Shown: in pieces, positions 6,530 through 64,000 of the stretch | Layout of the letters: each line of letters opens with the position of its first letter | How positions within the stretch are numbered: the first letter of the stretch is position 1 | Source: Sabellastarte sp. h YS-2021 | Taxonomy: Eukaryota; Annelida; Polychaeta; Sabellida; Sabellidae | Length of the DNA stretch: 64,000 nucleotides | Direction: 5' to 3' | Assembly: GCA_964017235.1 (NCBI GenBank) | Contig: OZ024936.1 | Span: forward strand, 37,284,040 to 37,348,039 | Notes under the pieces: generated by a model | Told to the model about the DNA's origin: nothing | Databases searched by the model: none | What the model saw: the letters and a program-made list of their open reading frames with translations, nothing else | Made by a program: the position numbers and the translations under genes

Positions 6530-6800
6530 TATCTAGCACAGTTTTCAAGATATAAGCATTTTTGTGTTTTGCAAAAAATTAAAAATGTCCGCTATATTTG
6601 GCGAGACAAAAATATTTTGAGAATTGGCATGACTACTCTGCAGAGATACCCAGCAGGTCAAAAATTTTGTTGAGTTCGCTCCATATAGCACGGTTTTCGA
6701 GATATATGCATTTTTGTGTTTTGAAAAAACTTTGAAAATTCAAAATGGCCACCATTTTTGGGGAGACAAAATTTTTTGTCAAGACCACTGCCGCGGTGTG
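6530..6800. repeat. Left-arm copies of the ~168-bp satellite family
   Basis: Two degenerate units share TATCTAGCACAGTTTTCAAGAT, AAGCATTTTTGTGTTTTGC and AAAATGGCCACCATTTTTGG blocks with the array at 8600-9715. The same two units are present in the second copy of the element at about 43100-43370. Confidence 0.75.
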
Positions 6801-6879
6801 TATCTCCCGCCGAGCATTAAAGGAGAAGAAATAGCTTTTCCGAGATACTCACAATTTTTCATTTTCGTGTGTGAAAGCT

Positions 6880-9715: not shown

Positions 9716-10075
9716 ATTTGGAAAATTCATAATGATTAATTAATCATTAATTACTCGGCCATTTCTTAACCAATCAATGCCAAAATCTAATGATTTCTAG
9801 ATTTTAATAGAATGAATGTATTTGCCAAGTTTCAGGTGAATTGATAAAATTCCTTTCAAGTTATCATCCGGACAAGCTTCCCCATCGAAAAAAGACATTT
9901 TTGGTCATGTGACCTCTCTGATTGGTTGAAATGTCACTGCAGCATATTCAAAAAAATTCCCCAAGGCTACTGCCTAAACCTGCCGAATTTGAAAAGAATC
10001 CGCCTCTCGGTTAGAGAGTTATAAGGAAAACAAAATGCGGAGCCGGCGGAGCCTGAAGGTCTCCCATACACAAAC
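9716..10075. other. Unique right arm of the HINE-like element
   Basis: About 360 bp, nearly identical to 45376-45740 in copy 2. It contains ATTAATTAATCATTAATTA, TCATCCGGACAAGCTTCCCC and GGAGCCGGCGGAGCC. No open reading frame of note. The high identity between the two copies points to recent mobility. Confidence 0.7.
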
Positions 10076-10099
10076 AAGCGTCCCTTGCGGGACGCTTAA

Positions 10100-10677
10100 T
10101 TCAGTCAACGGAGTGGTCACTACACTCTCAGGTGTTCAAAAGAATTTGCACAAAGTGGTTCACACCTCAGGTGGATCTGTTTGCCACTCGGCTAAACCAC
10201 AAGTTGCCACTATACGTCTCTCCAGTTCCAGATCAAAACGCATGGAACATAAATGCTCTAAACATAAGCTGGTCAAGTCTTGTAGCCTATGCTTACCCTC
10301 CAACAACTACTTCCAAAAGTAATACAAAAGGTCGGCCAGTACAACTGCCTCCTAATCCCGATAGCCCCGGGCTGGCCGGGCATGCCCTGGTTCTGGGATC
10401 TGGTCCATCTATCAGTGGAAATTCCACTTCAGTTGCCTGCATCCCCAAATCTACTCAAGCAGTCAACCAGGTGTTTCACAACAATACGCAATACCTCAAC
10501 CTCCATGCTTGGTGTCTAGCAGTGAGCAACTCCAAGAACAAGGTTTCTCTTCTGAAGTGGCAGAGAGAATTGCTGCCCCTCAAAGGTCATCAACAAGATC
10601 TATTTACCAAGCAAAGTGGGCCCTTTTTGAAAAATGGTGCAGAGAAAATTCGGTGGATGTCTCCAAACCTTCTATAA
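10100..10677 (+). pseudogene. D pol C-terminus: Dam-like methyltransferase-like domain
   Basis: This resumes the RNase H C-terminus (VQSTEWSLH equivalent), then shows QVDLFATRLNHKLPLYVSP, DPxAW-like spacing, YAYPP and APGWPGMPWFWDL. DIRS-type elements carry a domain here related to phage DNA N6-adenine methyltransferases. The D-x-F-A ... N ... W ... YPP order agrees with that family, where an xPP(Y) motif is catalytic; the final Tyr is not seen here. Enzymatic activity is therefore uncertain. The frame ends at 10677 and overlaps the YR gene that starts near 10509 in another frame, as in copy A. Confidence 0.7.
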
Positions 10678-25999: not shown

Positions 26000-28900
26000 T
26001 GCTTGATCTTTTGGATCACCTTGTGAAGGAGAGCCGTAGGAGGGTAGGCGTAGGCCGTGAGGTTAGTCCAGTTTATGTTCAGAGCATCTATGTTACAGGC
26101 CCTTGGGTCTGGGATAGGAGACACATATAGAGGGAGTTTGTGATTCAGGTGACTGGCGAATAAGTCTACATGAGGGGTGAACCACTTTCGGCAGATTTGC
26201 TTGAAGACCTGAGGGTGCAGAGACCATTCTGTTGACTGCACTTGGTTGGACCTGGATAGGAGGTCGGCCATCACATTCAGACACCCTGGAATGTGCCTGG
26301 CTTTCAATGTTATATGGTAGTGATGGCACCAGGTCATGATTTTCCACAGGAGAGCGCACATCTCTGCTGAGTGAGTTCCCCCCTGCTTGTTGATGTAGGC
26401 TACCACTGTTGAGTTGTCCGTCGCAACTAACACTGTTTGATTCTGGCACTGGTCCTTGAAGTCTCGAAGGGCCAGGGAGACCGCCTTCAATTCCAGGACA
26501 TTTATGTGTAGCCTTTTTTCCCGCTCTGACCACAGCCCTTTTGTAGAATTTTGATCTAAGTGAGCGCCCCAACCTTCGTTTGAGGCGTCGATAAAGAGTT
26601 GGATACTGTGGTCCTTGGGATGAAGGTCTGCGCCTTTCATCACATTTGAGGGGTTTTGCCACCAATCTAGGTGGGCTACAATGGCTTCTGTCCAAGGAAG
26701 GAGGTTGTCCAGCGACTGAGGATATCTCCAGTGCTCCTTGAGATGAAACTGAAAGGGCCTCATGTGAAGGCGTCCCTCCGGGACCATTTTCTCCGTTGAG
26801 GCTAGCAACCCAATTAGAGACATCAAACATCTTGCAGTCAAAACACGTTTTGACTTGAGTCGTAGGATCAAATCCTGAAGTTTGAGCCATCTCTCTTTAG
26901 TGGGTCTTACAAGGGCTGAATCTAGGTGGTATTCATAGCCCACGAACGAAAACACCTGAGTAGGTTTCAGTTCTGATTTTTCCTGGTTGATTATCCAACC
27001 CAAGGATTGGGTTATGTCTACCACTGCCTGTGTGTTCCTTTGAGATTCCTCCTGAGACTGGGACCTGATCAGCCAGTCGTCCAGGTATTGGTGAATTCTG
27101 AGTCCTCTTGAGAGGGCCATTAGTTTCACTTCCTTTACGATCATCGTAAAGACCTGGGGGGCTGTGGCCAGTCCGAAAGGTAGGGAGGTGAACTGGAACA
27201 CCTGGGCCTTGTAGCAAAACCTTAGGTACTTCCTTGAGTTTGGATGGATGGGGATGTGAAGGTATGCGTCCGACAGGTCTATCGACGATACCCACTCCCC
27301 TGGGACCAGGGAAGTCCTGACGGACTCCGGGGTTTCCATTTTGAACTTTTCTACATGTAGAAAAGTGTTGAGCCTGCTTAAGTCTATGACTGGCCTCCAC
27401 CTTTGGTGAGGCTTGGGTACTAGGAACAGGCGCCTGTAAAACCCGAGAGATTTTACGTTTTCCACCCTTTCGATGGCGTTCTTTGACAAGAGAGACTGGA
27501 TACAAGTGGCCAAGGCTTGGTCTTTTTGTTGGGCCTTGTACTCTGATAGAATCAGAGGAAATCTGATCAAGTTTGGCTTTGAACGGAATGGCAGAACGTA
27601 GCCATTGGTGATAATGTTTAACACGTTTTGAGAACATTTGTTTGTTAGCCAGTCTCTCTTGAAAGAACGGAGGCGACTTCCTACTGGTGGACTGAGTGAG
27701 GCTTTGGAGGAGTCATTGAGAAGGGGGGTTTCCACGCCCCCTTCCCCTATTGTGGGGTCGAAAACGACCCCTGGAGCCTCTGAAGTTGGATTTTCCTCTT
27801 CCCGAGGGAAAGGATTGGTTACTGTTTGAGAGGTATTGCCCCCATAGGGGCGTTTCCTGTAGGAGTCTCTTTTCTTGTGGGGGCCACGAAAGGGCTTATT
27901 CTGGTAGGGTGCGAAACCCTGAGAATCTTTTAAGGTGCCTTTTTTGAGAAGGAAGTCCTCACCTTCCTTTACAAGTTGAGACTCGAACAAGGAGGAGTCC
28001 CAGAAGGACGAGTTCCTAAGTTCTTGGCGTCTCGTTTCCCCTAGCTGGGGATGCAATAGAGTCATTTCGGCTTCGTGCCTAAGCAAGCCGGTATTAGCCA
28101 TGGAATATAATTCCCTCTGGAGAATATGGGCTAGCGATTTGCTGAGACAGGTAAGAGCTCTATGTTGAACAAGAACCGTCTTGTTCCAAAAATCCAAGTA
28201 CTCAGCAACTTCCTCATATCCACGCTTTGCTGCTTTCTCAGGATTGGCACCTTTCTGGATCTGAGACTTTATCTTCTTGACAGTTGACTTGATGCTATGT
28301 TGGCACTTTTCCAAGGAAGCATTGCAAGAAGAAGAGGTTTTGGCAAAGGCAGCGGTGAAATTGAGGGTTGAAATATTTTGTCTAGCCTGATGTTCCAGCT
28401 CCTTAAGAACTGGCAGAGGGACTTTGGCTACTGGTGCCCCAGGAGGTCTAGGAGTAATACAGATCTTAGCACAGTCCATATTCAACTCCTGGATTTTGTC
28501 TTGAAAAGTGGGCTGTCCAACCTTATACCACTTCGAAGTGGATGGAGGAGGCTTAACATATTTGCCCTCAGCTAAATTGGCAGCTTTGAAATCATGTTGA
28601 AATTTATCAAAGGCGTCCTTGATAACTGAGCTAAGTGGTAGGATAGAGGAAGGACCTCTAGGTCTGAGCTCTTGACGGCCTTTTTCGTCATCCAGACCCA
28701 ACACTGAAGTTGAAGACCTAGGCATAGAGTCCCTGGGGTCAGGGAGAGAAAGAATGCGCCTGAAGGTGTCTACCTCTTCAGAGTATTGGGAGGGAATGTC
28801 AGACAGGGCTACTTCCCTATAATAAGGGGGGTCTGGATCATGTTGTGGGAGGTCTTGATCAGAGGCTGCGCTTGAGGGCTGAGCCCTAGAGGGCTTAGAA

Positions 28901-29613
28901 GACCTGTGTCTGGCAACAGGGGAGTGATCTTCCTCTGAAGATGACACATATCTGGACCTAGATTTATGCTTGCTCTTGTCAGAGTGTTTCTTAGGTCTAG
29001 GATGGATCCGAGGTTCGTCGGAATCCTCATCCAGATGATCCGAGGCAGAGCTCGGTGCTACTGTTTGCCTGTGGCTTTGTTTTTTGTGCGAGTACGAGGA
29101 ATCGTTCGGTATAGCCTCAGAAGGGGCAACGTACTGATCCGAGGTAGATTGGTTAAGTACTAGTCGAGGAGGGGGTGCTGGACCAACGTCCACATCCATT
29201 GCCTCGGACTGAGCATTAGTACTAGACCTCGGAGGGGGTAGGTCCAAATGAGCAGCAATGTTGCTGGATGGACCAGCTTTTGAAGCATGAGGCGAGGGAT
29301 CAACCTCGGCTGGCTTTTTAATTGCCAACTCCTCTCGGAGTGATTGAAATGCTTCTAACATGGATGCCTGGAAGGAACCCATTTGCTGCTGAATATGTAT
29401 ATTTAAGGAATCACCCAGGGATTTCTCTAGATTTCTTTGAATTTTGTTTTGCAAAACAGTACCTGGGGTGGGTGGGACAGCTTTAGCTGGGGTTTTTAAT
29501 GATAAAGAACTGAAGGCGAGAGGTTGAGGACGGGGGGGGTGAGGTAAAGAGGTCATCGGCAGCACTCTCAAGGTCTGCATTAGAACCAGTAAAAGAGTCC
29601 CCATCGCCTTCAC
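25657..29613 (-). CDS. Gag-Pol of DIRS element A: Gag, RT, RNase H, methyltransferase-like
   Basis: A 1318-codon open frame. The first about 30 codons are out of register with family Gag; true Gag begins around PRPQPLAFSSLSLKTP. Gag then has a Lys/Ser-rich linker (DKSKHKSRSRYVSSSEE), VALSDIPSQYSEEVDTF, LEHQARQNIS and GETRRQELRNSSFW. RT follows with WRPVIDLSRLN (about residue 738), SSIDLSDAYLHIPIHP, FQFTSLPFGLATAPQVF and the catalytic QYLDDWLI (about 843). RNase H has LFIDASNEGWGAHL (about 1008), NVLELKAV, ATDNSTVVAY and ADLLSRS. The Dam-like domain has HVDLFASHLNHKLPLYVSP, YAYPP and APGWPGMPWFWDL. The frame ends inside the YR gene. It supplies cDNA synthesis for the element. The pol half appears fully intact. 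Confidence 0.9.
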   Translation of the reverse strand: MKAMGTLLLVLMQTLRVLPMTSLPHPPRPQPLAFSSLSLKTPAKAVPPTPGTVLQNKIQRNLEKSLGDSLNIHIQQQMGSFQASMLEAFQSLREELAIKKPAEVDPSPHASKAGPSSNIAAHLDLPPPRSSTNAQSEAMDVDVGPAPPPRLVLNQSTSDQYVAPSEAIPNDSSYSHKKQSHRQTVAPSSASDHLDEDSDEPRIHPRPKKHSDKSKHKSRSRYVSSSEEDHSPVARHRSSKPSRAQPSSAASDQDLPQHDPDPPYYREVALSDIPSQYSEEVDTFRRILSLPDPRDSMPRSSTSVLGLDDEKGRQELRPRGPSSILPLSSVIKDAFDKFQHDFKAANLAEGKYVKPPPSTSKWYKVGQPTFQDKIQELNMDCAKICITPRPPGAPVAKVPLPVLKELEHQARQNISTLNFTAAFAKTSSSCNASLEKCQHSIKSTVKKIKSQIQKGANPEKAAKRGYEEVAEYLDFWNKTVLVQHRALTCLSKSLAHILQRELYSMANTGLLRHEAEMTLLHPQLGETRRQELRNSSFWDSSLFESQLVKEGEDFLLKKGTLKDSQGFAPYQNKPFRGPHKKRDSYRKRPYGGNTSQTVTNPFPREEENPTSEAPGVVFDPTIGEGGVETPLLNDSSKASLSPPVGSRLRSFKRDWLTNKCSQNVLNIITNGYVLPFRSKPNLIRFPLILSEYKAQQKDQALATCIQSLLSKNAIERVENVKSLGFYRRLFLVPKPHQRWRPVIDLSRLNTFLHVEKFKMETPESVRTSLVPGEWVSSIDLSDAYLHIPIHPNSRKYLRFCYKAQVFQFTSLPFGLATAPQVFTMIVKEVKLMALSRGLRIHQYLDDWLIRSQSQEESQRNTQAVVDITQSLGWIINQEKSELKPTQVFSFVGYEYHLDSALVRPTKERWLKLQDLILRLKSKRVLTARCLMSLIGLLASTEKMVPEGRLHMRPFQFHLKEHWRYPQSLDNLLPWTEAIVAHLDWWQNPSNVMKGADLHPKDHSIQLFIDASNEGWGAHLDQNSTKGLWSEREKRLHINVLELKAVSLALRDFKDQCQNQTVLVATDNSTVVAYINKQGGTHSAEMCALLWKIMTWCHHYHITLKARHIPGCLNVMADLLSRSNQVQSTEWSLHPQVFKQICRKWFTPHVDLFASHLNHKLPLYVSPIPDPRACNIDALNINWTNLTAYAYPPTALLHKVIQKIKQCHCLIIVIAPGWPGMPWFWDLVQLSTEIPLQLPVSTTLLKQSHNYVFHNNPQQLNLHAWCLGADNSKNKASLWRWQRELLPLSGHQQRPSTGQSGPYLKNGAEKIRWISPLHL

Positions 29614-30148
29614 CCAAGAGATCTAGTTCATCTTTAGAACTAGTTTCCGCTTTTTGCTTTTTTAAGTACCGCTTCCTGTTTTGAATTTTTTTGCAATTGT
29701 TCATCAGTGAGAGACGTGCAAATATGGCAGGGTGCTTCAAAAGTGACACAGGGGTCATCTCCCTTGCCAGCCTCCCTACAGGTAGGGCAGTAGTTATGAT
29801 TATTGTTATATATACAAAGAACTCAGCTCTGTACTGCTTAAACTCTGGTCATTGCTGTATCATATCAGTCAACACCTTCACAGCTCACTGACATCCAGAT
29901 AAACTATAGGTCAAATGTATATCCTTTTATCCTGGGAAAGTATGTAGCATATGCACTGTCTCTGAACTGTTTTGTATGCAACTTCATTGTGCATTTGCCT
30001 TTTATATTGAATAGATGTGTTTTAGTAAGAACTGTGTTTCAATTGTGTGTGTTCCAAGTCCAAGTTTATGACAATTATCAAAACTGAAGCAAAAATGGTG
30101 GCATTTCTGAGCTCTCGGTTTGTCTTTGTTTGCTTGATGGAGAGACAT
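29483..30148 (-). pseudogene. A Gag N-terminal pieces, out of frame with Gag-Pol
   Basis: A start like that of D is at 30148 (MSLHQANKDKPRAQKCHHFC). About 245 bp of non-homologous sequence with stops follow, flanked by ATAAT-like repeats, and Gag resumes near 29815 with HNYCPTCREAGKGDDPC, APCHIC. A run of seven A near 29689 shifts the frame to KIQNRKRYLKK. A run of eight G near 29532 shifts again into the long Gag-Pol frame. Copies B and D show that these pieces belong together. The two shifts are single-base homopolymer differences, so they could be sequencing errors. The 245-bp gap could be a small insertion or an intron. Confidence 0.6.
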
Positions 30149-40139: not shown

Positions 40140-40991
40140 GGATCGGCTGAGGAGCCACTACTGGGCCCAAGTAAAGAGGCTCTAACTCAGCCCTAGCCAC
40201 ATCCTTCAGAAGAACTGTGTGAAGGTGATATGTGACTTACAGTGGCAGGCTGAGAGGACTGTTCTAAGGAGACTCCCGACTGGAATACCTTAGAAGCAGC
40301 AAAGGCCCTAACATCATGGGCTTGACCTGATGTAAGGTGAGGGGTTGTTGGTCAGAGAGCTCATAGCATAGGATCACAGTAGTTTCATCCATGAGGAGAT
40401 GGTGCCAGGAGAGATGTCCTTGTCGAAACCTTTCTTGGAAGGAGACAAAGACCAGCTCCTTGTTATGCCTAAGATCTGAGGTCCTACCCAGATGGTAACA
40501 CAGGGCTCTGACTGGACATATGGACCTGTCACCCTTCAGTGCCTTATCCAGAGTGGAGGCCAGGGCTGCATTAACCACAGGGGCCACACTGTCTGGACTC
40601 TCTTTGGCCAGCTGATTCTTGGAAAGAAGGCTGGCTGATGGGAAGAGAGACACCATAATCCAGTCTGATTGGTGTCTGAAGTTGTTATGCAGCCATGCAT
40701 GGATCTCACCCTTCGCTTGCCTGAACCCAAGGCCAACAGGAAGACAGTCTAGAAAGTCAAGTGCTTCGGGGAGGCCTCCTTAAGGGGTTCAAAGGGAGCC
40801 TTTATCAGCTGGTGCAGAACCAGGGAGAGGTTCCAAGAGGGGATGCCCCTCTGCCCTTGGATCTGTCTCTATGGAAACTACCTGGGAGATGAGTGAGATT
40901 TTTCTTGGCTGACATTCATGGGCGAATTTCCCAATTGTCAGAAATGGCTGGTCTATAGCCATCAATGGTGCCCGGCTGTAACTTTGCTTCA
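40140..40991 (-). pseudogene. G tyrosine recombinase, C-terminal half, degenerate
   Basis: Pieces in several frames match family 1: GTIDGYR (about 40965), SFHRDRS, KAPFEP, then SLFPSASLLSKNQLAKESPD, CPVRALCYHLGRTSDL and LVFVSFQE. CYELSDQQPLTLHQVK and an H-D-V-R box follow near 40310. At the place of the nucleophilic Tyr the sequence reads FTQFF followed by a frame loss, so the catalytic Tyr is gone. It joins the N-terminal half at 51259 across the Ngaro-like insertion. Confidence 0.75.
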
Positions 40992-41456
40992 CTGCACCCA
41001 AAGTGCTGTGGGGTTCAGTCCCCTGAGCCATATCCTGGCTACATCTGGTCTAAGTTTGGAGCCTTGATTCTGGCTAGCTAGCATTTATTGGGTTGAAGTG
41101 CATTCCCGGTTGCTATGTTTCCCCTCTTGCTATTGGTTGAGGATTCAAATGACTTGCATTGAGAGGGAAGCCATTCAGTGTAAATTTTGACTTGGAAGGA
41201 GAAACTTGTTTTAGAACTGTTCATGCTATTTTACTACTTATGGATTTTAATTATGCCTTTTAACCAGACTTTGGATGGATCCTGTTACTCAACTCTATGA
41301 CTTAGACAGACAACTTTATGCTTGTGCTTGTAACCTTGAAGAGATGGTCTAACCTATGTTCCTTGTGCTTTATAGCCTTTTTGTGTCGAGATTATAAGCC
41401 CCAGCATATCCTTGTCTGTCAAAGTCTAAGCACAATGTGCTTCTTGTTGTTTCAGA
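40992..41456 (+). other. 5' region of E
   Basis: About 465 bp without a gene. It presumably contains the terminal repeat and promoter of E. A TATATATATACATGTATATA run lies at about 41500, just after it. Confidence 0.35.
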
Positions 41457-42580
41457 GTGCTGAACTTTATTTACTGTAAACACCATTTAGAGAGTACATA
41501 TATATATACATGTATATATATTACACTGTTGAAAAAATGGGAAAGCAGAAGAACTTTCAGTGCTCCAGTTGTAATACCAAGCACCAGAGACCTGCTAGTG
41601 GCTGCTGCTGATGTTAGTGACAATGACATTGACCTATCTTTTTCTGACACTAGTGGTCCATTTGAAGCTGCAGTAGCTCACCCTGTCAATTCTGATATTA
41701 ATGGACTTTTATTGTCAGAACTGAAACATCTCAGTTCGAAGATGGATTCCATGGAAAAGCGTCTGGCAACTACTGAACAGAAGCTGAAATCTCCCAGTAA
41801 GTCCAAGGACTAACAGAGACAGAAAGTGATCAAGGAAAAAATTCAGACAACTTCCACAACTACAGACAGCAGTGATGGTGACTCATCAGATCAGACCTTG
41901 TCCTGCCTTCAACCAGGTTTATCAAGAGAGATGCCAAGATACAGGAGCAAGTGCGAGCCAGATTAGAGGAGTTGAAACAATTAAATGAGTGGGACAATCA
42001 AGGTAAATTAAAAAGTCAGAGATCTGTAAATGATGATGTGACTGTTAAAGTAAAAATTCCATGGCCTCAAAATCAGGTGTTATCTGGATCCACTAGGTCC
42101 AGGCCATCATATGATCAGTTAAAATATTTTTCAGTGGGTCACAGGCTTTGCTCGTATCGCTCAAGATGAAACAAATGTTGACACTAAAAACAAAATGCTT
42201 GAGTATTTAGGTGACATGATGGAGGACGCGCAGGAAAAATCCTGGGCGTCAGCCAAAGCTGCACATGCAGTTATTTTGTGTAGAATGGAGGAGGGCAAAT
42301 TGACTTGGAGTGACACACAAGGGTTGGACAGGTTAAGAAGGGCACATGCCCAAAAAATTCTCACCACCTCCAGCTATGGCAATGGATCTGGCAAAAAATT
42401 TGAAAAGTCCAAAGAAGGGTTTGATATGCAAATTTTTTCAAATTGGGTCGTGTAATCACTCCAGAGATCATATAAGTGGGGGGGGGGGGGAATATAGACA
42501 TGTGTGCATTCATTGTCAAGGCTCTCATCCAGCAAAAGATTGTAAAAACAGTAAAGAAAAGCAATCAAAAAACGAGTAAG
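41457..42580 (+). pseudogene. E Gag with coiled coil and Cys/His knuckle, frameshifted
   Basis: The first part (to 41813) ends in a heptad-like helix (LSSKMDSMEKRLATTEQKLK). After a stop the protein continues in other frames: KIQEQVRARLEELKQLNEWD (about 41940), FQWVTGFARIAQDETNV-like sequence, then MLEYLGDMMEDAQEKSW and SDTQGLDRLRRAHAQK (42195-42340). The end reads CKFFQIGSCNHSRDH and EYRHVCIHCQGSHPAKDC, a CCCH/CCHC-like knuckle seen in Ngaro-type Gag proteins. A run of 12 G (42479-42490) interrupts the knuckle. The protein would bind element RNA. Three or more frame breaks make it nonfunctional as read. Confidence 0.75.
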
Positions 42581-42799
42581 GCACTGCAGTGATGCAGTGC
42601 CAAAGGACCTGAAACAAAACCAAAGGAATAAAATTTTTCCTACAAGAATTATTTACAATAGTGTGTTTAAAAAATTTCATGGCAAAAAGGTGAATATTCC
42701 ACAGGGCAGAAAAGTCTGTCAGGTTGGTAATGATTCAAGGTGTAAAAGACATATTGTCACTTCTAATACACACAAATCTCCTCTGGTGATTTAATAGCA

Positions 42800-42947
42800 A
42801 GCCATGTGAACACAATATGACAGGTATGTACTTCAGTGTGCCAATTCAAAATAAATTCAGTCTTCTCAGTACTAAAGAGCATTGCACACCACTGGATAAG
42901 TACACAAATGATAAACAAATGCAGTATGTGCAGGAATTAAATTACAA
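42800..42947 (+). pseudogene. E Pol N-terminal segment before the HINE insertion
   Basis: An open stretch (MTGMYFSVPIQNKFSLLSTK, LDKYTNDKQMQYVQELNYN) runs to the left border of the inserted element and continues after it with ETAQKTRKYMAKKQ at 45765. It is unassigned by domain. The position suggests the N-terminus of E's polyprotein. Confidence 0.5.
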
Positions 42948-43440
42948 CTAGAGGATCGCTCGCAAAAAAAAAAAAAATAAGGTTTTTGCATAGCAAAAAC
43001 AAAGCGTCCCGAAAAGGATATAAAGGTGAGTGCTAAAGTATTAAGAAAATGCTTCGTTTCTAGCCTTATACTGTTGTGCCAACCAAAGTCAGCGCAGTCT
43101 GCTCTATCTAGCACGGTTTTCAAGATATAAGCATTTTTGTGTTTTGCAAAAAATTAAAAATGTCCGCTATATTTGGCGAGACAAAAATATTTTGAAAATT
43201 GGCATGGGTACTCTGCAGAGATACCCAGCAGGTCAAAAATTTTGTTGAGTTCGCTCCATATAGCACGGTTTCGAGATATAAGCATTTTTGTGTTTTGCAA
43301 AAACTTTGAAAATTCAAAATGGCCACCATTTTTGGGGAGACAAAAATTTTTGTCAAGACCACTGCCGCGGTGTGTATCTCCCGCCGAGCATTAAAGGAGA
43401 AGAAATAGCTTTTCCGAGATATTCACAATTTTTCATTTTC

Positions 43441-44920
43441 GTGTGTGAAAGCTCTTCGAAAAGTAGGTGAATGAGTTATCTGAGAAAAATTGGCTATCTG
43501 CAATACTATTAAGAGATAATTCACATTTACTCATTTTGAGTAGTTGAATAATTAACTATGGGTCTGAAACTTCACCAAGTGAAAGCTCTCCCAAAAGTAG
43601 GTGAATGAGTTATTTGAGAAGAATTGGCTATCTGCAATACTTTTAGAGATAATTCGCATTTACTCATTTTGAGTAGGTGAATAAATAGCTATGGGTCTGA
43701 AACTTCACAGAGTGAAAGCTCTCCCCAAAAGTAGATGAATGAGTATTTGATAAAAATTGGGTATCCGCAATACTTTTACAGATAATTAGCATTTACTCAT
43801 TTTGAGTAGGTGAATAAATAGCTATGGGTCTGAAACTTCACAGAGTGAAAGCTCTCCCAAAAGTAGGTGAATGAGTTATTTGAGAAAAATTGGCTATCTG
43901 CAATACTTTTAGAGATAATTTGCATTTACTCATTTTGAGTAGGTGAGTAATTAGCTATGGGTCTGAAACTTCAGAGTGAAAGCTCTCCCAAAAGTAGGTG
44001 AATGAGTTATTTGAGAAAAATTGGCTATCTGCAATACTTTTAGAGATAATTTGCATTTACTCATTTTGAGTAGGTGAGTAATTAGCTATGGGTCTGAAAC
44101 TTCAGAGTGAAAGCTCTCCCAAAAGTAGGTGAATGAGTTATTTGAGAAAATTGGCTATCTGCAATACTTTTACAGATAATTCGCATTTACTCATTTTGAG
44201 TAGGTGAGTAATTAGCTATGGGTCTGAAACTTCACCAAGTGAAAGCTCTCCCAAAAGTAGGTGAATGATTTATTTGAGAAAAATTGGCTATCTGCAATAC
44301 TTTTAGAGATAATTCGCATTTACTCATTTTGAGTAGGTGAGTAATTAGCTATGGGTCTGAAACTTCACCATGTGAAAGCTCTCCCAAAAGTAGGTGAATG
44401 AGTTATTTGAGAAAAATTGGCTACCTGCAATACTTTTAAGAGATAATTCGCATTTACTCATTTTGAGTAGGTGAGTAATTATCTATGGGTCTGAAACTTC
44501 ACCATGTGAAAGCTCTCCCAAAGGTACATGAATGAGTTATTTGATAAAAATTGGGTATCCACAATAGTTTTTGAGATAATTAGTATTTACTCATTTTGAG
44601 TAGGTGAGTAATTAGCTATGGGTCTGAAACTTCACAGAGTGAAAGCTCTCCCAAAAGTAGGTGAATGAGTTATTTGAGAAAAATTGGCTATCTGCAATAC
44701 TTTTAGAGATAATTCGCATTTACTCATTTTGAGTAGGTGAGTAATTAGCTATGGGTCTGAAACTTCACAGAGTGAAAGCTCTCCCAAAAGTAGGTGAATG
44801 AGTTATTTGAGAAAAATTGGCTATCTGCAATACTTTTAGAGATAATTCGCATTTACTCATTTTGAGTAGGTGAGTAATTAGCTATGGGTCTGAAACTTCA
44901 CCAAGTGAAAGCTCTCACAA
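43441..44920. repeat. 133-bp satellite array, about 11 copies (HINE copy 2)
   Basis: The same unit as 6880-8610. Two neighbouring units near 43970-44110 share a GAAACTTCAGAGTG deletion, a sign of local unit duplication. Confidence 0.9.
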
Positions 44921-45375
44921 GACAAAATTTTTTTGAAAATTGGCATGGCTACTCTGCAGAGATACCCTGTGGGTAAAAAATTTCGTCGAAATCGCTCTAT
45001 CTAGCATGGTTTTCGAGATATAAGCATTTTTATGTTTTGCAATTTTTGCGAAAAATTCGAAAATTCAAAATGGCCGCCATTTTTGGCGAGACAAAATTTT
45101 TTTCAAAATTGGGATAACTACTCTGCAGAGATACCCTGTGGGTCAAAAATTTCGTCGAAATCGCTCTATCTAGCATGGTTTTCGAGATATAAGCATTTTT
45201 ATGTTTTGCAATTTTTGCGAAAAATTCGAAAATTCAAAATGGCCGCCATTTTTGGCGAGATAAAAATTTTTTTTAAATTGGGATAACTACTCTGCAGAGA
45301 TACCCTATGGGTCAAAAATTTCGTCGAAATCGCTCTATCTAGTACGGTTTTCGAGATATAAGCATTTTTGTGTTT
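44921..45375. repeat. ~168-bp satellite, about 2.5 copies (HINE copy 2)
   Basis: Same unit as 8600-9715 but fewer copies. The junction from the 133-bp array is abrupt (AGCTCTCACAAGACAAAATT). Confidence 0.85.
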
Positions 45376-45764
45376 TCTTTATTTGGAAAATTCATAATGA
45401 TTAAGTAATCATTAATTACTCGGCCATTTCTTAACCAATCAATGCCAAAATCTAATGATTTCCATATTTTAATAGAATGAATGTATTTGCCAAGTTTCAG
45501 GTGAATTGATAAAATTCCTTTCAAGTTATCATCCGGACAAGCTTCCCCATCGAAAAAAGACATTTTTGGTCATGTGACCTCTCTGATTGGTTGAAATGTC
45601 ACTGCAGCATATTCAAAAAAATTTCCCAAGGCTACTGCCTAAACCTGCCAAATTTGAAAAGAATCCGCCTAACGGTTACAGAGTTATAAGGAAAACAAAA
45701 TGCGGAGCCGGCGGAGCCTGAAGGTCTCCCATACACAAACAAGCGTCCCTTGCGGGACGCTTAA

Positions 45765-47700
45765 TGAAACAGCACAAAAAACCAGGAAGTATATGGCTAA
45801 AAAACAGGTAAACATGATAGCAGATAAGGTGAACCAGGATAAGTCTGCATCTGGAAAAAATAAGGTGGGTACTATTAAATATTTTGGTACTGAAAAAGTT
45901 GTTGACACAAAAGAAAAGTCTGATAGTTTATGTGTTGATAGAAACACCACTTTTGGCGTGGAAAGTTGTGCTAAAAATCATACTGTTTCAGGTTACACTA
46001 GTGGTCACACCGATACGATTTTGACAACCACAGAAAAAGTTGTTGCTGAGACAGGAAAATCTGATAGTTTATGTTTTAATAAAAACACCACTGCTGATTT
46101 AGAATGTTGTACTGAGAATCATATTGGGTCAGGTTACACTGGTGGTCACACTGATACAATTTTGACAGGCACAGATAAAGTTGTCAACAAAATAAGAAAA
46201 TCTGATAGTTTATGTGTTGGTAAAAACACTACTGTTGATGTGGAAAATCTTGCTGAAAATTATATTGTTTCAGGTTATACTGGTGGTCACACTGATACGA
46301 TTTTGACAAGCACAGAAAATTCTCTTGATAAACCAGGAAAATCTGATAGTTTATGTGTCAATAAAAGCAGCACTGTTGATGTGGAAAGTTGTACTGAAAA
46401 TCATATTGATTCAGGTTATACTGGTGGTCACACTGATATGATTTTGACAAGCACAGAAAAAGCTGTTGATAAAACAGGAAAATGTGATAGTTTATGTGTC
46501 AATAAAAGCAACACTGTTGATGTGGAAAGTTGTACTGAAAATCATATTGTTTCAGGTTACACTGGTGGTCACACTGATACAATTTTGACAGGCACAGATA
46601 AAGTTGTCAACAAAATAAGAAAATGTGATAGTTTATGTGTTGGTAAAAACACTACTGTTGATGTGGAAAATCTTGCTGAAAATCATATTGTTTCAGGTTA
46701 TACTGGTGGTCACACTGAAATGATTTTGACAAGCACAGAAAAAGCTCTTGATAAACCAGGAAAATCTGATAGTTTATGTGTCAATAAAAGCACCACTTTT
46801 GATGTGGAAAGTTGTACTGAAAATCATATTGATTCAGGTTATACTGGTGGTCACACTGATACGATTTTGACAAGCACAGAAAAAGCTGTTGATAAAACAG
46901 GAAAATGTGATAGTTTATGTGTCAATAAAAGCAACACTTTTGATGTGGAAAGTTGTACTGAAAATCATATTGTTTCAGGTTATACTGGTGGTCACACTGA
47001 TACGATTTTGACAAGCACAGAAAAAGCTGTTGATAAAACAGGAAAATGTGATAGTTTATGTGTCAATAAAAGCAACACTTTTGATGTGGAAAGTTGTACT
47101 GAAAATCATATTGTTTCAGGTTATACTGGTGGTCACACTGATACAATTTTGACAGGCACTGATAAAGTTGTCAATAAAATAAGAAAATCTGATAGTTTAT
47201 GTGTTGATAAAAATACTACTGTTAACATGGGAAGTTGTAATGGAAAGCATATTGTTTGTTATACTGGTGGTCACACTGATATGATTTTGACAAGCACAGA
47301 AAAAGTTGTTGACAAAAAAGGAAAATCTGATTGTTTATGTTTTAATAAAAACACCACTGTTGATGTAGAAAGTTGTACTGGAAATCATATTGCTTCAGGT
47401 TATACTGGTGGTCACACTGATATGATTTTGACAGGCACAGAAAAAGTTGTTGACAAAACAGGAAAAGCTGATAGTTTATGTGTTAATAAAAACACTACTA
47501 TGTTGATGTAGAAAGTTGTACTGAAAGTCATATTGGTTCAGGTTATACTGGTGGTCACACTGATACGATTTTGATCAGCACAATGCCTGTCTGGGAGTCT
47601 AAAAATTTAAAATATTTGAAATTTCAGGAGGCGTCTCAAGTCCATGATTTTCAACAATGGAAAAAACAACCGATTTCAATTTGGATTCATACCCTTGAGT
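45765..47700 (+). pseudogene. E tandem-repeat coding region: 12 units of 47 residues
   Basis: The frame is open across the HINE border, but the genuine E sequence starts at ETAQKTRKYM. Twelve units follow, mostly 47 residues (141 bp), each close to KSDSLCVNKNTTVDVESC, TENHIVSGYTGGHTDTIL. Most units have C-x11-C-x3-H-x8-H. Two units replace the second Cys with Leu. A two-base insertion at about 47500 breaks the frame. The last unit continues in the next frame and leads into VWESKNLKYLKFQEASQVHD and a stop near 47714. No known family is recognised. It lies between Gag and RT and is probably part of the element's polyprotein. No signal peptide is seen. Confidence 0.65.
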
Positions 47701-47749
47701 CCCCTGTTAGGTGAAAATAATTGTAAAGAAAATGGCACCATAGATTGCC

Positions 47750-49628
47750 CTTTAGATGCTCACAAAATTATAAAAAATCAGGTCTTTACAAATTTCAACA
47801 ACAGAGGTTGCTTTTGAAAACACAACTTAATCCTGCTGTATGGGAAGAAACTTTAAGTGACTACTGGGATTGGCAGTTAATCCAATTCATCAAATTTGGA
47901 TTTCCCTTAGTTTATTTATTTATTTGGGGTTTTACGTCGCTTTCAACACTGTACAGGTCATATCATGACGGGTAGTTGGAAGGGCAGAGGAAACCAGTAC
48001 ATATAGTTCGCTAGGGTTCTGTACTGTAAACTGCCGACCAACGGCAAGCAACTACCAGCTTTCCCACTTACGGCCATGACGGGGATCGAACCCCGGCCGC
48101 AGAGGTGGGAGGCGAGAGTGTTACCACTCTGCCACCGTGGCCCCGTGGATTTCCCTTAGATATGCGACCAGATTCATCACTCAAATGTGATTATTCAAAT
48201 CATAAATCTGCTACTCTCTTCCCTTCTCATGTCAAATCATACTTACATGAAGAAAAGCAGTTTAATACCATATTTGGCCCGTATGAAAAGGAACCTTTCC
48301 CTGGGATGCAGTGTAGTCCCTTTATAACTCAGGAAAAACCTGACTCTGAAAATCGTAGGGTCATAGTAGACATTAGTTGGCCAAGAGGGGCTTCGATGAA
48401 TGATGGGGTTGAATCTGATCAGTACCTTGGCACAAAATTTTTATTAACGTTTCCTTCCATAGATGATATTACTGCTCAGGTCACACGACTTGATCGTGGT
48501 TGTCTTTTGTACAAAGTGGACACTAGCCGTGCCTTTAGCCACATAAAAATGGATCCTTTTCATTACAATAAATTGGGTTTAAAATGGGATGGCTTCTACT
48601 TTGATTCTTGCCTGCCTTTTGGCTTCAAACATGGCAGTAAAATTTTTCAGAGGATAAGTGATGCCATTAGATACATTTAAGCAAAACAGAACCATCAGAT
48701 TATAAATTATATTGATGATTTAATAGGATTTGGCCTCCCCAGTACTGTTTACAAAAGTTTCAACCATCTATGTACGTTACTCAAAAAATTAGGCCTCACC
48801 ATAAGTGCTAAAAAACTAGTCCCACCAAGTACAGTTGTAACATGCCTTGGAGTCCAAATTAACACCATTGAGGGTACTATATCTGTTCCACCAGAGAAAT
48901 TGCAAAAAATCAGAGAAATGTGCTTACAATGGGAGAATAAGACCCACACTAGTATGAGGCACTTACAGTCCTTATTAGGTTCCCTGTTGCACATTACAAA
49001 ATGTGTAAAGAGTTCAAGAGCCTTCTTGAATAGGATGCTGCAAAACTTGAGAGATGCAAAGCAGTCGGATCAAGTGGTCTTTGACCAAACTTTTTACCAA
49101 GATTTATCCTGGTTTCAAACATTTCTACCCCATTTTAATGGTATCTGTTTATATAGTCACCCTAGCCTGCAAGGTACAATACAGATTGATGCTTCATTAC
49201 AAGGTTTGGGTGGTAGATGGGGCAACCAGGTATATAAACTAAGCATCCCCTTTGGTATGGACAACCTAGGCATAGTGCAGCTTGAAATGCTGAACCTTTA
49301 TTTGGCCTTTAGGGTATGGGCCCCCTTATGGAAGGAAAAACATGTTAAATTTGAATGCGACAATGAGGCTGTGGTCTCTGTAGTCAGGTCTGGGAAGACC
49401 AGAGATAAAGTCCTGGCTGCTTATGCTAGAAATATTAACATGTTAGCTGCCCTATTTGACATTAAAATAACCATTGTTCATCTTCCAGGTCAGGCCAATG
49501 CGATTGCTGACTTGCTGTCCAGATGGGATACTATTCCCAATAACTTACAACAGCTATACTTACATATTGCTGAACCCCAGTGGATTCCAGTAAATCTAGA
49601 GATGTTACATATTGATTGGACCATCTAA
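47750..49628 (+). pseudogene. E reverse transcriptase - RNase H, cut by a SINE, one stop
   Basis: The N-terminal RT region (LNPAVWEETLSDYWDWQLIQ, FIKFGFPL) precedes the SINE at 47911. RT resumes at 48160 (DMRPDSSLKCDY), then EKPDSENRRVIVDISWPRG, YKVDTSRAFSHIKMDPFHYN and DSCLPFGFKHGSKIFQRISD. A TAA at 48678-48680 interrupts an otherwise continuous frame, which goes on to the catalytic NYIDDLIGFG, then a connection domain. RNase H follows: IQIDASLQGLGGRW (first Asp), LEML (Glu), ECDNEAVV (Asp), AIADLLSRW (Asp). It ends at 49628. The SINE and the stop codon inactivate it. The domain order and motifs match Ngaro-type YR retrotransposons. Confidence 0.85.
47897..48159 (-). mobile_element. tRNA-derived SINE with 14-bp target duplication
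   Basis: The body at 47911-48145 is flanked by TGGATTTCCCTTAG at 47897-47910 and 48146-48159. On minus the head reads GTGGCAGAGTGGTAAC (A box) and GGTTCGATCCCC (B box, 48081-48094 region), an internal RNA polymerase III promoter. It ends in AAATAAATAAATAAAC, a short-repeat tail. It is about 235 bp long. It inserted in antisense into the RT gene and, when removed, restores FIKFGFPL-DMRPDSS. Confidence 0.9.
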
Positions 49629-49646
49629 TATTTTATTTTTGTAGGT

Positions 49647-50627
49647 ATGTCACCAGTTGCAGCTTCCTTAAGCTCCAGAGCTTTCGCCAGGGCAAAATCT
49701 GGCTTTAGACCCAACACTCAACGTAATTATGAGTCAATGTTTTCACTTTTTCTAGGTTTCTGTGTGTTCATCAACATTTCCATTCAAAATCTCTCCCCAA
49801 AAATTCCATCTTGGCTTTCATGGAATTTTTAGTTAGCAATGGGGCTTCATTTTCCTCTGTTGCCAATCATATCTCAGCAGTAAAGGCAATGCTAGGCCTT
49901 CATGGCTTCCTTGTCCATTTTTCAATCCCCTAAAATCAAATTATTCTTAAGATCATTGCAGTTAAATCGCCCCCTTGCAATCTCACTTCCAGCTGTCATT
50001 GATGTGCACATGCTACAAAGAATAGTTCAGGTTTATGATACCATGTACATGGGTCAAATTTATAAGGCATTTTATTTGTTAGCTTTTTTCAGCTTCCTTA
50101 GGTTATCAAATCTTGTGCGTCATTCTATTCTTCAGTTTGACCCTTCTAGGCACCTGGCCCGAGGTGATGTGATTATGGGTAGGTCTTCCTGTAAACTGTT
50201 AATAAAAAGGTCAAAAACAATTCAATGTAGGGACAGAGTACAAATCATAGCTTTACCTTATTTGGGCCTTTCTCCCCTTTGTCCAGTTAATGCTCTAAAA
50301 GTTTTACTTTCAGTCATTCCCTTGGCAACAATGCCCCCTTATTTCAGGTAAAAAATGCTCAAAGGTGGCAAGTACTTACCGATTCTAAGGTGAGATACCA
50401 TTTTCATCTAGTATTGAAAAGACTTTCATTACTCAAGAAAGGTTTTTCTTTTCATAGCCTCCTATCTCTTTAATCACCAGGTAAGCCTCCAAGATATCAA
50501 ATCACATGGTACCTGGACCTCCGATGCGGTCTGGAGATACCTCATTCAGGACTCTTCCTCCCCCTCTACTATATCCTTGGCTTTTCAGCGCCAACTTGCC
50601 TCTTTCCCTCTTCCTTCTACTCCCTAG
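49647..50627 (+). pseudogene. E tyrosine recombinase (Ngaro type), with lesions
   Basis: It begins MSPVAASLSSRAFARAKSGF and NTQRNYESMFSLFLGFC. A frameshift in a CCCCAAAAA run (about 49797) separates it from FMEFLVSNGASFSSVANHIS and LRSLQLNRP. Box I is LLAFFSFLRLSNLVRHS, followed by KLLIKRSKTIQ, CPVNALKVLL. After FHLVLKRLSLLKKGFSFHS a short deletion removes the expected F-R-R-S-G-A, so the Arg of H-x-x-R is lost. The C-terminus resumes in another frame, VSLQDIKSHGTWTSDAVWRY (nucleophilic Tyr), stop at 50625-50627. It would integrate E. It is inactive through the lost catalytic Arg and frame breaks. Confidence 0.8.
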
Positions 50628-51258
50628 TTGGGGTTTTGGGTTTTAGTCTGATGTAAAGTGTAATCCATTCTCTCATGATGATTCTGTAATTTATGTACAG
50701 TTTATTTATCTATATGCATTAATTAGCCATTTATGTATTAATCTCACATTTAAATTGTATTCGAAAATGACTAATTGTAACATAGCACTTGCTCATTCTA
50801 ACCTTCCCCCTTTTAGTAAATTGTATTGGGTTGTAATATATTGGTGATCTGTAATTTGTTGATTTCATCTTATCTGTGATGTTGATTTGTTGTTGATGGA
50901 GATATAATAGGCTAGTATATTGTTTTGCAGAATGTGTAATGGAACATTATGGTTAATTTATTTATTTGACCCCTTTTACATCTGGGGTCCCATAATGCTG
51001 TAATTGTTGTGTTATTAATAAGTAATGCATAATCTAGGTAATTGCATAATGCATAAATTTTCATTCACCTTAATTGTCTTGGGGTGTCCTGACCAGTGCT
51101 TGTGTGGACTTTGGACTGTAATTAGTTTGGGTCACCCCTTCACTCTCTTCTATACTGTTCATATATAGTGTGCATATTACATGATAATTGTGGTAGTAAA
51201 TAAAGTAGAAATAAACATAAATTTCCCTCAACTGGTAGTTTGCCTCTTGGGTACTGCC
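50628..51258 (+). other. 3' region of E
   Basis: 630 bp, AT-rich, no gene. It should include the 3' split repeats of a Ngaro element. AATAAAGTAGAAATAAAC near 51200 could hold a polyadenylation signal. Confidence 0.4.
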
Positions 51259-52720
51259 TGTCTTGAAACAAGTACAGAGGGAAGTCAGCTTTTTTTTTGA
51301 GATGGTGTGCTGAAGTCCACCTGATTACTGAGGTACCACTTGTAAAACATATGGTCCACTTGCCTCATATACTGATCTGGTTGATCCTCTTGAGGAGCCT
51401 CAATTCGAGCTGCCACTGCCTCAGGGAAGCCCTGCTTCCTTGGAAGTTGGGGCTCTAGGGACCAGGCATGTAGACTCAGATTTACCAGGTTCCTGTGATT
51501 TACCAGGGTCTGGTTGAATGGCTGAGCCAAAGGTCAGCCAGAAAGTGCAGACACAGTGGGATCTGACTTGACATGGTCACCAGGTCCCAGAACCAAGGCA
51601 TGTTGGACCACCCTGGCGCAATCAGTAGGAGTCTGTTGCACGGGTGGTCCTGCAACTTCTCCACCACTTGCCAAAGGCTGCTGGTGGGAAGGCATGTGGG
51701 TCCAGATCCTCCCAAGGTAGACTGAGGGCCTCTACTGCCCGGGCTTGTGGATCTGGAACTGGTGAGACAGAGATGTAGTTGTTGTTGAACCTGGTGGCAA
51801 ACAGGTCCACTTGAGGCTGGTGCCACCTTCAGCATATTGCTTGAAGACCTTGGAAGGAGGGACTATTCTGTTTGAATGGTCTGTCCTAGCCTGGATAGCT
51901 TGTCTGCTATCACATTCGGCCAGCCGTGGATGTGTCCGGCTCTGAGTCACCTGTTTCTGGTACACCAGGTCAGGATTCTCCACAAGAAGATTCTCCCCCC
52001 TTTATACTGACCGCCACCATAGGGTTGTCTGTAGCTACGACAGCAATATAGTTCAAGTAGAGGTTTTGAAACTCTTTTAGGGCCAAAAGACCGCATTTAA
52101 TTCCTGAACTGGGATCACCATTTCTAGTGATTCAGGTAGTCTCCAGCTGTTCATCAACTGTCACTGTATCTGCCTGATGAGAAGGCCACCTATGTGGACA
52201 TGCCTTGCTATGGCTGTCAGTAATGTTATTAGGGGGATCAGCCGCCGGACCGGGCACATCGGTCCAGAGAGAAGTTCCTGGATTGCAGATAACGTCTGCA
52301 AATGCTCTAGGGCTGATCTCACCAGGCCTTCTTCCAGGCTGGACTGGTAGCCTACCAAGTTGAAGGCTCGCTCGAGGCCCAGTTCTAACTTCCCATGATA
52401 CCATTCAAACTTACTCCTGACTCAGAGCTACTAGAGATTGTGTATGTTGGAGACAGGTTTGGTGGGAACCGGACTTGACCAACCAGTCATGCTGGTGGAT
52501 TGTGGTACTTAGTAATGTCATAGTTAGACCTCCTTCGCCACCACCATGAGGACACCCCCTGTGTACTGTGAAAACAGACCAGACGGGAGTGCATGAATTG
52601 GCAGGGAAGGCCCTGGATGAGCAAACTCTGGCACTTCCTTGTTGGCTGAATGCGGTGAGGGAGTAGGGAACCTTGAGGTTAGCCACTCCTCTGGCTGAAA
52701 AGAGGTTCATATGGTTCCTG
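51259..52720 (-). pseudogene. G RT/RNase H/methyltransferase-like end and YR N-terminus, degenerate
   Basis: Read from the right: a decayed RT palm (LPIHALPSGLF; HQHDWLV at the YLDDWLI position, about 52480), then GYQSSLEEGLVRSALEHLQ, LIPLITLLTA (52160-52380). RNase H is decayed (about 51880-52100). MDLFATRFNNNYISVSPVPD, FPPAA and APGWSNMPWFWDL mark the methyltransferase-like domain (51540-51810). The YR start reads LQPRKQGFPEAVAARIEAPQ-like and NQVDFSTPS in the other frame. A run of nine T (A on the element strand) near 51290 breaks the frame before ADFPLYLFQD. It is interrupted by E at 51258. No active enzyme can be encoded. Confidence 0.75.
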
Positions 52721-61064: not shown

Positions 61065-64000
61065 TCAGCTTCATGCCTTTTTGCATTGGTTGGGTTGAAA
61101 ATTTTGACGAAATCACTCTATCTTGCACGGTTAAGAAGATAGAAGCCAATTCCTGTTTTTCTATTTTTGGCAAAAATTTGAAAATTCAAAATGGCCGCCA
61201 TTATTGGGAAAAGGAAATTTTTTTGAAAATTGCCAAGAGTACATTTCTTAGATACCCTATGGGTCGAAAATTTCAACAAAATAACTCTATTTTGCACGGT
61301 TAAGGCCAGTTTGTGTTTTTCCATTTTGGGCAAAAATTCGAAAATTCAAAATGGCTGCCATTTTTGGGGAGGGGAAAATTTTTTGAAAATTGCAAAGATT
61401 ACATTCCTTAGATACCCTGTGGGTTGAAAATTTCGACGAAATCGCTCTATCTCGCATGGTTAAGGAGATAGAAGCAAATTTGTGTTTTGCCATTTTTGGC
61501 AAAAATTTGAAAATTCAAAATGGCCGCCATTTTAGGGGAGGGGAAAATTTTTTAGAAATTACCAAGAGTACAATGCTCAGATACCCTGTGGGTCGAAAAT
61601 TTTGACGAAATCACTCTATCTGGCACGGTTAAGGAGATAGAAGCAAATTTGTGTTTTGCCATTTTGGGCAAAAATTCGAAAATTCAAAATGGCCGCCATT
61701 TTTGGGGAGGGGAAAATTTTTGGAAAATTGCAAAGATTGCATTCTTTAGATACCCTGTGGGTCGAAAATTTCGACGAAATCGCTCTATCTCGCACGGTTA
61801 AGGAGATAGAAGCAAATTTGTGTTTTGCCATTTTTGGCAAAAATTCGAAAATTCAAAATGGCCGCCATTTTTGGGGAGGGGAAAATTTTTTGAAAATTGC
61901 AAATATTACATTCCTTAGATACCCTGTGGGTCGAAAATTTCGATGAAATCGCTCTATCTCGCACGGTTAAGGAGATAGAAGCAAATTTGTGTTTTGCCAT
62001 TTTTGGCAAAAATTCGAAAATTCAAAATGGCCGCCATTTTTGGGGAGGGGAAAATTTTTGGAAAATTGCAAAGATTGCATTGGTTAGATACCCTGTGGGT
62101 CGAAAATTTCGACGAAATCGCTCTATCTCGCACGGTTAAGGAGATAGAAGCAAATTTGTGTTTTGCAATTTTTGGCAAAAATTCGAAAATTCAAAATGGC
62201 CGCCATTTTTGGGGAGGGGAAAATTTTTTGAAAATTGCAAAGATTACATTCCTTAGATACCCTGTGGGTCGAAAATTTCGACGAAATCGCTCTATCTCGC
62301 ACGGTTAAGGAGATAGAAGCAAATTTGTGTTTTGCCATTTTTGGCAAAAATTCGAAAATTCAAAATGGCCGCCATTTTTGGGGAGGGGAAAATATTTTGA
62401 AAATTGCGAAGATTGCATTGCTTAGATACCCTGTGCGTCGAAAATTTTGCCGAAATCGCTCTATCTCGCACGGTTAAGGAGATAGAAGCAAATTAGTGTT
62501 TTGCCATTTTTGGCAAAAATTCGAAAATTCAAAATGGCCGCCATTTTTGGGGAGGGGAAAATTTTTGGAAAATTGCAAAGATTGCATTCCTTAGATCCCC
62601 TGTGGATCGAAAATTTTGCCGAAATCGCTCTATCTCGCACGGTTAAGGAGATAGAAGCAAATTTGTGTTTTGCCATTTTTGGCAAAAATTCGAAAATTCA
62701 AAATGGCCGCCATTTTTGGGGAGGGGAAATTTTTTTGAAAATTGCAAATATTACATTCCTTAGATACCCTGTGGGTCGAAAATTTCGACGAAATCGCTCT
62801 ATCTCGCACGGTTAAGGAGATAGAAGCAAATTTGTGTTTTGCCATTTTTGGCAAAAATTCGAAAATTCAAAATGGCCGCCATTTTTGGGGAGGGGAAAAT
62901 TTTTGGAAAATTGCAAAGATTGCATTCCTTAGATACCCTGTGGGTCGAAAATTTCGACGAAATCGCTCTATCTCGCACGGTTAAGGAGATAGAAGCAAAT
63001 TTGTGTTTTGCCATTTTTGGCAAAAATTCGAAAATTCAAAATGGCCGCCATTTTTGGGGAGGGGAAAATTTTTTGAAAATTGCAAATATTACATTCCTTA
63101 GATACCCTGTGGGTCGAAAATTTCGACGAAATCGCTCTATCTCGCACGGTTAAGGAGATAGAAGCAAATTTGTGTTTTGCCATTTTTGGCAAAAATTCAA
63201 AAATTCAAAATGGCCGCCATTTTTGGGGAGGGGAAAATATTTTGAAAATTGCAAAGATTGCATTGGTTAGATACCCTGTGTGTCGAAAATTTTGCCGAAA
63301 TCGCTCTATCTCGCACGGTTAAGGAGATAGAAGCAAATTTGTGTTTTGCCATTTTTGGCAAAAATTCGAAAATTCAAAATGGCCGCCATTTTTGGGGAGG
63401 GGAAATTTTTTTGAAAATTGCAAATATTACATTCCTTAGATACCCTGTGGGTCGAAAATTTCGATGAAATCGCTCTATCTCGCACGGTTAAGGAGATAGA
63501 AGCAAATTTGTGTTTTGCCATTTTTGGCAAAAATTCGAAAATTCAAAATGGCCGCCATTTTTGGGGAGGGGAAAATTTTTGGAAAATTGCAAAGATTGCA
63601 TTCCTTAGATACCCTGTGGGTCGAAAATTTCGACGAAATCGCTCTATCTCGCACGGTTAAGGAGATAGAAGCAAATTTGTGTTTTGCCATTTTTGGCAAA
63701 AATTCGAAAATTCAAAATGGCCGCCATTTTTGGGGAGGGGAAAATATTTTGAAAATTGCAAAGATTGCATTGCTTAGATACCCTGTGCGTCTAAAATTTT
63801 GCCGAAATCGCTCTATCTCGCACGGTTAAGGAGATAGAAGCAAATTAGTGTTTTGCCATTTTTGGCAAAAATTCGAAAATTCAAAATGGCCGCCATTTTT
63901 GGGGAGGGGAAAATTTTTGGAAAATTGCAAAGATTGCATTCCTTAGATCCCCTGTGGGTCGAAAATTTTGCCGAAATCGCTCTATCTCGCACGGTTAAGG
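61065..64000. repeat. 169-bp satellite array, about 17 copies, continuing past the window
   Basis: AAATCGCTCTATCTCGCACG recurs every 169 bp (for example near 61778, 61947, 62116, 62962, 63131 and 63976). Each unit contains CAAAATGGCCGCCATTTTTG, GGGGAGGGGAAAATTTTT, GATACCCTGTGGGTCGAAAA and GGTTAAGGAGATAGAAGCAA. The first three units are the most diverged, as expected at an array edge. Later units are highly alike. Open frames on both strands repeat with the period and are not genes. The unit is homologous to the ~168-bp repeat inside the HINE-like elements. Confidence 0.95.

Follow-up and report, generated by a model that had tools for sequence, protein, structure and literature searches.

The stretch of DNA analysed here (64,000 nucleotides, hereafter the window) carries a tandem array of 47-residue units in a retrotransposon-like element, which we call E, and raises the question of whether the cysteines and histidines that recur in these units reflect a module kept by selection or simply the repetition itself. 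The initial annotation favoured the former, proposing selection for metal binding or structure. Our analyses recast this candidate zinc module as repeat growth in a linker: with a probability of roughly 0.78, the array is a coding minisatellite, i.e. a tandem amplification of a probably disordered, weakly constrained segment of the Pol linker between Gag and the reverse transcriptase (RT) in a Ngaro-like retrotransposon.

The array was delimited by Tandem Repeats Finder (TRF) to 45892-47582 (period 141 bp, 12.0 copies, 86% matches), and in the linker protein its repetition is far above chance (z 98.9 for the self-alignment, relative to 40 shuffled sequences). It lies in a stop-to-stop frame of 612 aa (45673-47511) that holds eleven units on the forward strand (45892-47439), ten of which measure 141 bp (units 1-9 and 11) and one 138 bp (unit 10). 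Unit 12 (47440-47582, forward strand) has a length of 143 bp, so that the frame is lost there, its GYTGGHT falls in a different frame and the ORF closes at 47511; the twelve in-frame units described initially are therefore real as units, but only eleven of them are in frame. No stop occurs in the 516 codons of units 1-11, whereas the other five frames contain 16 to 87 stops over the same interval. Under random, transition-weighted substitution (stop fraction 0.021), the chance of such an open stretch is 0.10-0.26, and it is smaller without transition weighting (stop fraction 0.041); the open state of these units is thus weak evidence for constraint. Units 4, 5, 7, 8 and 9 are mutually 91-98% alike, and the pairs 3/6, 4/7 and 5/8 are 97%, 96% and 97% alike, respectively, i.e. 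the array contains a duplicated three-unit block.

Element E runs along the forward strand and was mapped by comparison with a second copy on C6 (locus L007) and with relatives. Its 5' part with a Gag-like ORF region (40983-42945) aligns to the C6 copy at 85-95% in three main pieces. It is followed by a 2.8-kb later insertion in the gap between Gag and the linker (42946-45765, forward strand), which is not present in L007 and has a second copy within the window (6373-10100, 94-95% alike at both ends). The Pol linker upstream of the array (45766-45891) lies within an 89.6% alignment of 45768-46737 to L007. Downstream of the array, the linker end with a PVWESKNLK block and the start of the RT-proximal region (47583-47910) appear in the same order in related elements. 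The RT/RNase H region (48146-49628) is split into two open pieces by a stop (48678-48680) and is identified by its ORFs, by Pfam RVT_3 and by 127 matches in an RT search of the genome for relatives; the remnant of a tyrosine recombinase ORF with frameshifts (49640-50640) was recognized by eye in comparison with locus L048. Between the linker end and the RT/RNase H region lies a short interspersed-repeat-like insertion (47911-48145, no strand assigned), which has 94-97% copies in L041 and L054 and is missing from L007, where the flanking alignments overlap by 14 bases; it gave no Rfam match at the gathering score (40900-51500 scanned) and no ARAGORN match (window scanned). In L007, the Gag frame lies directly upstream of the linker and ends in a CCHC-like stretch, as judged by eye. 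The placement of the array between Gag and RT consequently holds for the element map, but in the window copy the 2.8-kb insertion cuts Gag off, and its end coincides with the start that the initial annotation had given to the feature (45765).

The Ngaro-like assignment made initially is borne out by these relatives. Ngaro elements are described in PMC9210276 and PMC3783388 as being marked by the repeat order A1-B1-A2-B2 and by the lack of a methyltransferase, which marks DIRS elements. Locus L032, which was read in three pieces and whose RT/RNase H piece is 73% identical to that of the window element at the amino acid level, shows split direct repeats arranged as A1-ORFs-B1-A2-B2, in which A1 (76906392-76906616) matches A2 (76912127-76912351) at 99.1% and B1 (from 76911476) matches B2 (from 76912737) at 99.6-100%; no such repeats were found in the window copy or in the C6 copy. 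Pfam places both RVT_1 and RVT_3 above their cut-offs in L032, while in the window copy RVT_3 is just above and RVT_1 below. The recombinase ORF of L048 matches Phage_int_SAM_5 above its cut-off and Phage_integrase below its cut-off (E 5.8e-5), and a Pfam scan of two ORFs (L032 Pol and L048 recombinase) listed no methyltransferase at E ≤ 1. On these sequence features, E is a defunct Ngaro-like tyrosine-recombinase retrotransposon. Both copies are dead, each carrying frameshifts, and the window copy has in addition the RT stop and two insertions.

The position of the array corresponds, in relatives found by their RT, to the stretch between the end of Gag and the conserved block before RT, and where its start is readable this linker measures 201-249 aa, broken frames aside. 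Of 31 linkers of at least 100 aa, 16 distinct ones remained after near-copies had been dropped (L060, nearly identical to L059, was one of those removed, and the broken L056 received no score). Strong internal repeats were present in three of these, namely the window element (z 98.9), L059 (z 36.6) and L048 (z 23.5), while the other 13 ranged from z -1.5 to 3.9, the top value being the weak one of L049. The repeats differ in kind. L059 and L060 share an 81-bp unit in 9.9 copies (27 residues, about ten times) with a three-unit higher order, which in L060 lies within an open frame of 820 aa, closed prematurely within Pol; in L127, which is related to both, about two units of this type were counted by eye. 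In L048, 116 residues occur twice, with GGHT spaced 116 residues apart, and several units of this type were seen by eye in the broken L056/L057; TRF found no DNA-level array in L053, the piece that holds the L048 units. Unit number differs between copies, with 12 units in the window against six in the C6 copy and about ten against about two in the 27-residue lineage.

For a tree based on 176 aa of RT, 22 rows were used, after 17 of 39 had been dropped as near-copies; 11 more rows were left out as short, including L007, L056, L059 and L065. The tree groups L060 with L066, L070 and L072 (100/99), whose linkers show no repeat in the repeat test, and groups 15 rows without a known array (97/99), only part of whose linkers could be tested. 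This topology implies at least two origins of linker arrays, unless arrays were lost several times; the placement of the window element and L048 is left open by the tree, and these two could share one origin. The linker also changes fast. In eight of ten unsaturated pairs of relatives its dN/dS is 0.56-0.97 (the remaining two give 0.13 and 1.59), compared with 0.08-0.26 for RT in the same ten pairs; six further pairs, saturated or nearly so, were excluded. For L059/L060, the ratios are about 1.4 in the array and about 1.0 in the adjoining RT start, with few changes in each, so that this pair looks unconstrained. The array sits in a fast-evolving Gag-RT linker, at a position where most of the tested relatives have a repeat-free linker and other lineages have made arrays of other lengths.

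These observations speak for a coding minisatellite. With a period divisible by three, every unit gained left the reading frame intact and did no more than make the spacer longer. Growth may have proceeded by unequal exchange or template switching, and the array would have been kept by tolerance rather than benefit, possibly serving as a spacer without metal. A repetitive spacer was among the options considered initially, and it fits the in-frame position of the array in Pol, with Gag on one side and RT on the other. To judge from the linkers compared, the same kind of growth probably took place in at least one other lineage, which suggests that the Gag-RT stretch of Ngaro-like elements is a site of repeated in-frame repeat origin. 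Several observations count against the minisatellite reading: the dN/dS point estimates of the array lie below 1, eleven units stayed open, L049 has its weak self-repeat score, TRF saw no DNA array for the L048 units, the GGHT core recurs in all arrays although slippage alone would not lead one to expect it, and the conservation of silent sites in this core lacks an explanation.

GGHT or a near form is present in every array found, irrespective of whether the units measure 47, 27 or 116 aa. At its silent sites, the window element, L029, L034, L048 and L060 share the third base of five out of six core codons, whereas none of 276 six-codon control windows in RT/RNase H exceeds three shared third bases, a value that nine of them reach. 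In RT, the third bases of four-fold sites are 27-58% identical over the ten pairs formed by these five elements, and NCG, the type of the last core codon, makes up 8% of NCN codons. The comparison has to be read with the provisos that the site was chosen after being seen, that each array is represented by a single chosen unit, and that ACG stands at the last core codon in only five of the 12 window units. No DNA core was present in seven more distant linker ends (370-391 bases each), one of which has GHT. A cis signal, short-tract exchange or luck are possible causes of the silent conservation. If it holds up, it would point to a new cis-acting signal in retrotransposons of a class that is poorly understood. 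The GGHT core could be read as a signal that Ngaro-like elements carry at the nucleotide level (in RNA or DNA) and that the arrays amplified, with the protein repeat as a by-product; we consider this unlikely.

The core pattern GGTCACACTGANNCG occurs at 78 sites in the genome, compared with seven for the reversed control. The 52 sites that were read, at 50 loci, fall into flank-sharing clusters of ten, eight, four and four, four clusters of two, and 18 single sites; with several such clusters, the pattern is not a linker-specific string, and the same 15 bases are also found in other repeats. The suggestion that the units are a captured sequence found no support: the searches turned up relatives of the unit in no other place than the linkers of related elements, although the core string of 15 bases is also present at other sites in the genome. 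Two groups of loci with the core were observed besides. L075-L078, L082, L084, L102, L106, L112 and L123 belong to a repeated gene-like family with a protein of the ...AGGHTDPNIVYQNF... type, which in L075 and L076 is accompanied by a second core about 320 bp off on the opposite strand; the L082 piece of this family gave no Pfam match at E ≤ 1. L087, L088, L090, L094, L103, L116, L118 and L122 form a repeat family with common flanks around GGTCACACTGA(G/C)TCG, followed by a CTCTC stretch.

The ubiquity of GGHT could also be due to selection on the protein, in which case the array would be a multivalent disordered region of Pol, with repeated GGHT-type motifs as binding sites for RNA, Gag or a host factor and with avidity tuned by unit number. 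Consistent with this, several repeat-less linkers have a single GHTE, SHTE, SRTE or GCTE instead, and L060 keeps its 27-residue array in the 820-aa open frame. However, that frame closes early within Pol, L127 has only about two units, the L059/L060 ratios given above exceed or equal 1 in array and RT alike, the core histidine is replaced by arginine or cysteine in some relatives, and no GHT motif is found near the linker end in L024, L037, L040, L066, L070 and L072. We therefore regard a multivalent binding region as improbable, and prefer the reading as a coding minisatellite.

A minisatellite might also have grown only after the death of the element and be open by accident, which would agree with the dead state of both copies and with the unit count of the window, which is double that of C6. 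The comparison of the two loci argues otherwise. A search of the whole genome (1.79 Gb) found the unit at two loci, the window and C6 (six of six DNA matches and 15 of 15 protein matches, both lower bounds), and the array on C6 comprises six units and is frameshifted. Several of its units correspond to those of the window: window units 1, 2 and 12 match C6 units 1, 2 and 6 at 97%, 96% and 95%, window unit 10 matches C6 unit 3 at 91%, and window unit 11 is 93% alike to C6 unit 4 and 92% to C6 unit 5. Because the outer units match, an array must already have been present when the two copies diverged, before either of them was inserted at its locus. Together with the L060 array, which also lies within a long open frame, this makes growth confined to the time after death quite improbable, although the middle block of the window array (units 3-9) may have grown then.

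This leaves the Cys/His pattern. The initial statement that most units keep two cysteines and two histidines at fixed spacing is correct for eight of the 12 units, in which C-x11-C-x3-H-x8-H is exact in the real frame (units 1, 2, 4, 5, 7, 8, 9 and 11); the remaining four deviate, with the second cysteine missing from units 3 and 6, the first histidine missing from unit 3 as well, the His-His spacing one residue short in unit 10, and unit 12 shifted. Mean conservation in the window units is 0.94 for the four Cys/His columns and 0.83 for the remaining columns, and random sets of four columns equal the former in 11% of draws for these 12 units and in 8% when the C6 units are included (18 units; p 0.11 and 0.08). 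Among the 18 units, the Cys/His codons have been replaced by codons for Gly, Leu (twice), Tyr and Arg and show no silent change, while nearby codons for Tyr, Gly, Thr and Ile do vary silently. The dN/dS ratio is 0.82 in the window array (limits 0.49-1.50), 0.64 in the C6 array (0.36-1.22) and 0.66 for five matched window-C6 unit pairs (0.37-1.39). With these wide limits the array ratios are indistinguishable from 1; as all point estimates are below 1 (0.61-0.91), mild purifying selection is possible. The Cys/His set is missing from the related linkers that were read. A lack of Cys/His conservation in other copies, or a dN/dS near 1, had been named initially as the mark of an ordinary minisatellite; this applies in part, as the ratios cannot be told from 1 within their wide limits, and the C6 copy keeps most of its Cys/His residues, but other elements do not.

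The profile and structure searches proposed initially gave no sign of a folded domain. Neither Pfam nor NCBIfam yielded a match of the array above cut-off, and a search of the PDB returned none at E ≤ 1. VirE1, BamHI, HslV and other matches of the array to Pfam and NCBIfam families were rejected, lying below cut-off without a single passing stretch, and are thus probably sums over repeats; likewise, none of 35 pattern matches in IMG/VR viral contigs was confirmed as a relative. A structure prediction for three units (nine overlapping window rows, no zinc) gave no confident fold, with a mean pLDDT of 28 and a pTM of 0.17, which is weak evidence because shallow alignments such as this one often yield poor models; the low predicted confidence would agree with the composition of the array (66% polar or small residues, 3.5% aromatic). 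The Cys/His pattern is no evidence beyond the repetition itself, and a zinc-binding or otherwise folded Cys2-His2 module, in spite of its exact spacing in two thirds of the units, was rejected as very improbable on column conservation and codon changes, with which the low pLDDT and the absent PDB match agree; as far as the sequences tell, it is not supported.

Gag-Pol type proteins do contain cysteines and histidines in the form of the CCHC zinc knuckles of Gag. The array differs from these in spacing, in the lack of a confident fold and of conservation in relatives, and the Gag of E has the separate CCHC-like stretch mentioned above. Coding minisatellites of disordered proteins have units that are multiples of three, higher-order blocks and low constraint; all three features are found in E, where the protein concerned is the polymerase of a mobile element. 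With the Ngaro superfamily, E and its relatives share the Gag-like ORF, RT/RNase H and tyrosine recombinase as well as, in L032, the split direct repeats, whereas the in-frame tandem amplification inside the Pol linker is a feature of E. The word 'tandem' does not occur in the main text of PMC9210276 or of PMC3783388, and among the titles and abstract openings listed we found no description of an in-frame linker repeat in a tyrosine-recombinase element. Retand and similar LTR retrotransposons have family-specific internal tandem arrays, as outlined in PMC11963269, and are comparable to E in this respect; their arrays are located between pol and the 3' LTR, while that of E is inside the Pol frame.

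Further repeats were observed elsewhere in the window. The insertion element (42946-45765 and 6373-10100) contains two arrays in succession, the first with a 133-bp and the second with a 169-bp unit, and ends close to a hairpin (AAGCGTCCC...GGGACGCTT). A long 169-bp satellite array (61091-64000, 17.3 copies, 93%), which reaches the end of the window, is 74-76% alike to part of this element. On the minus strand, 25657-29622 holds a stop-to-stop frame of 1321 aa.
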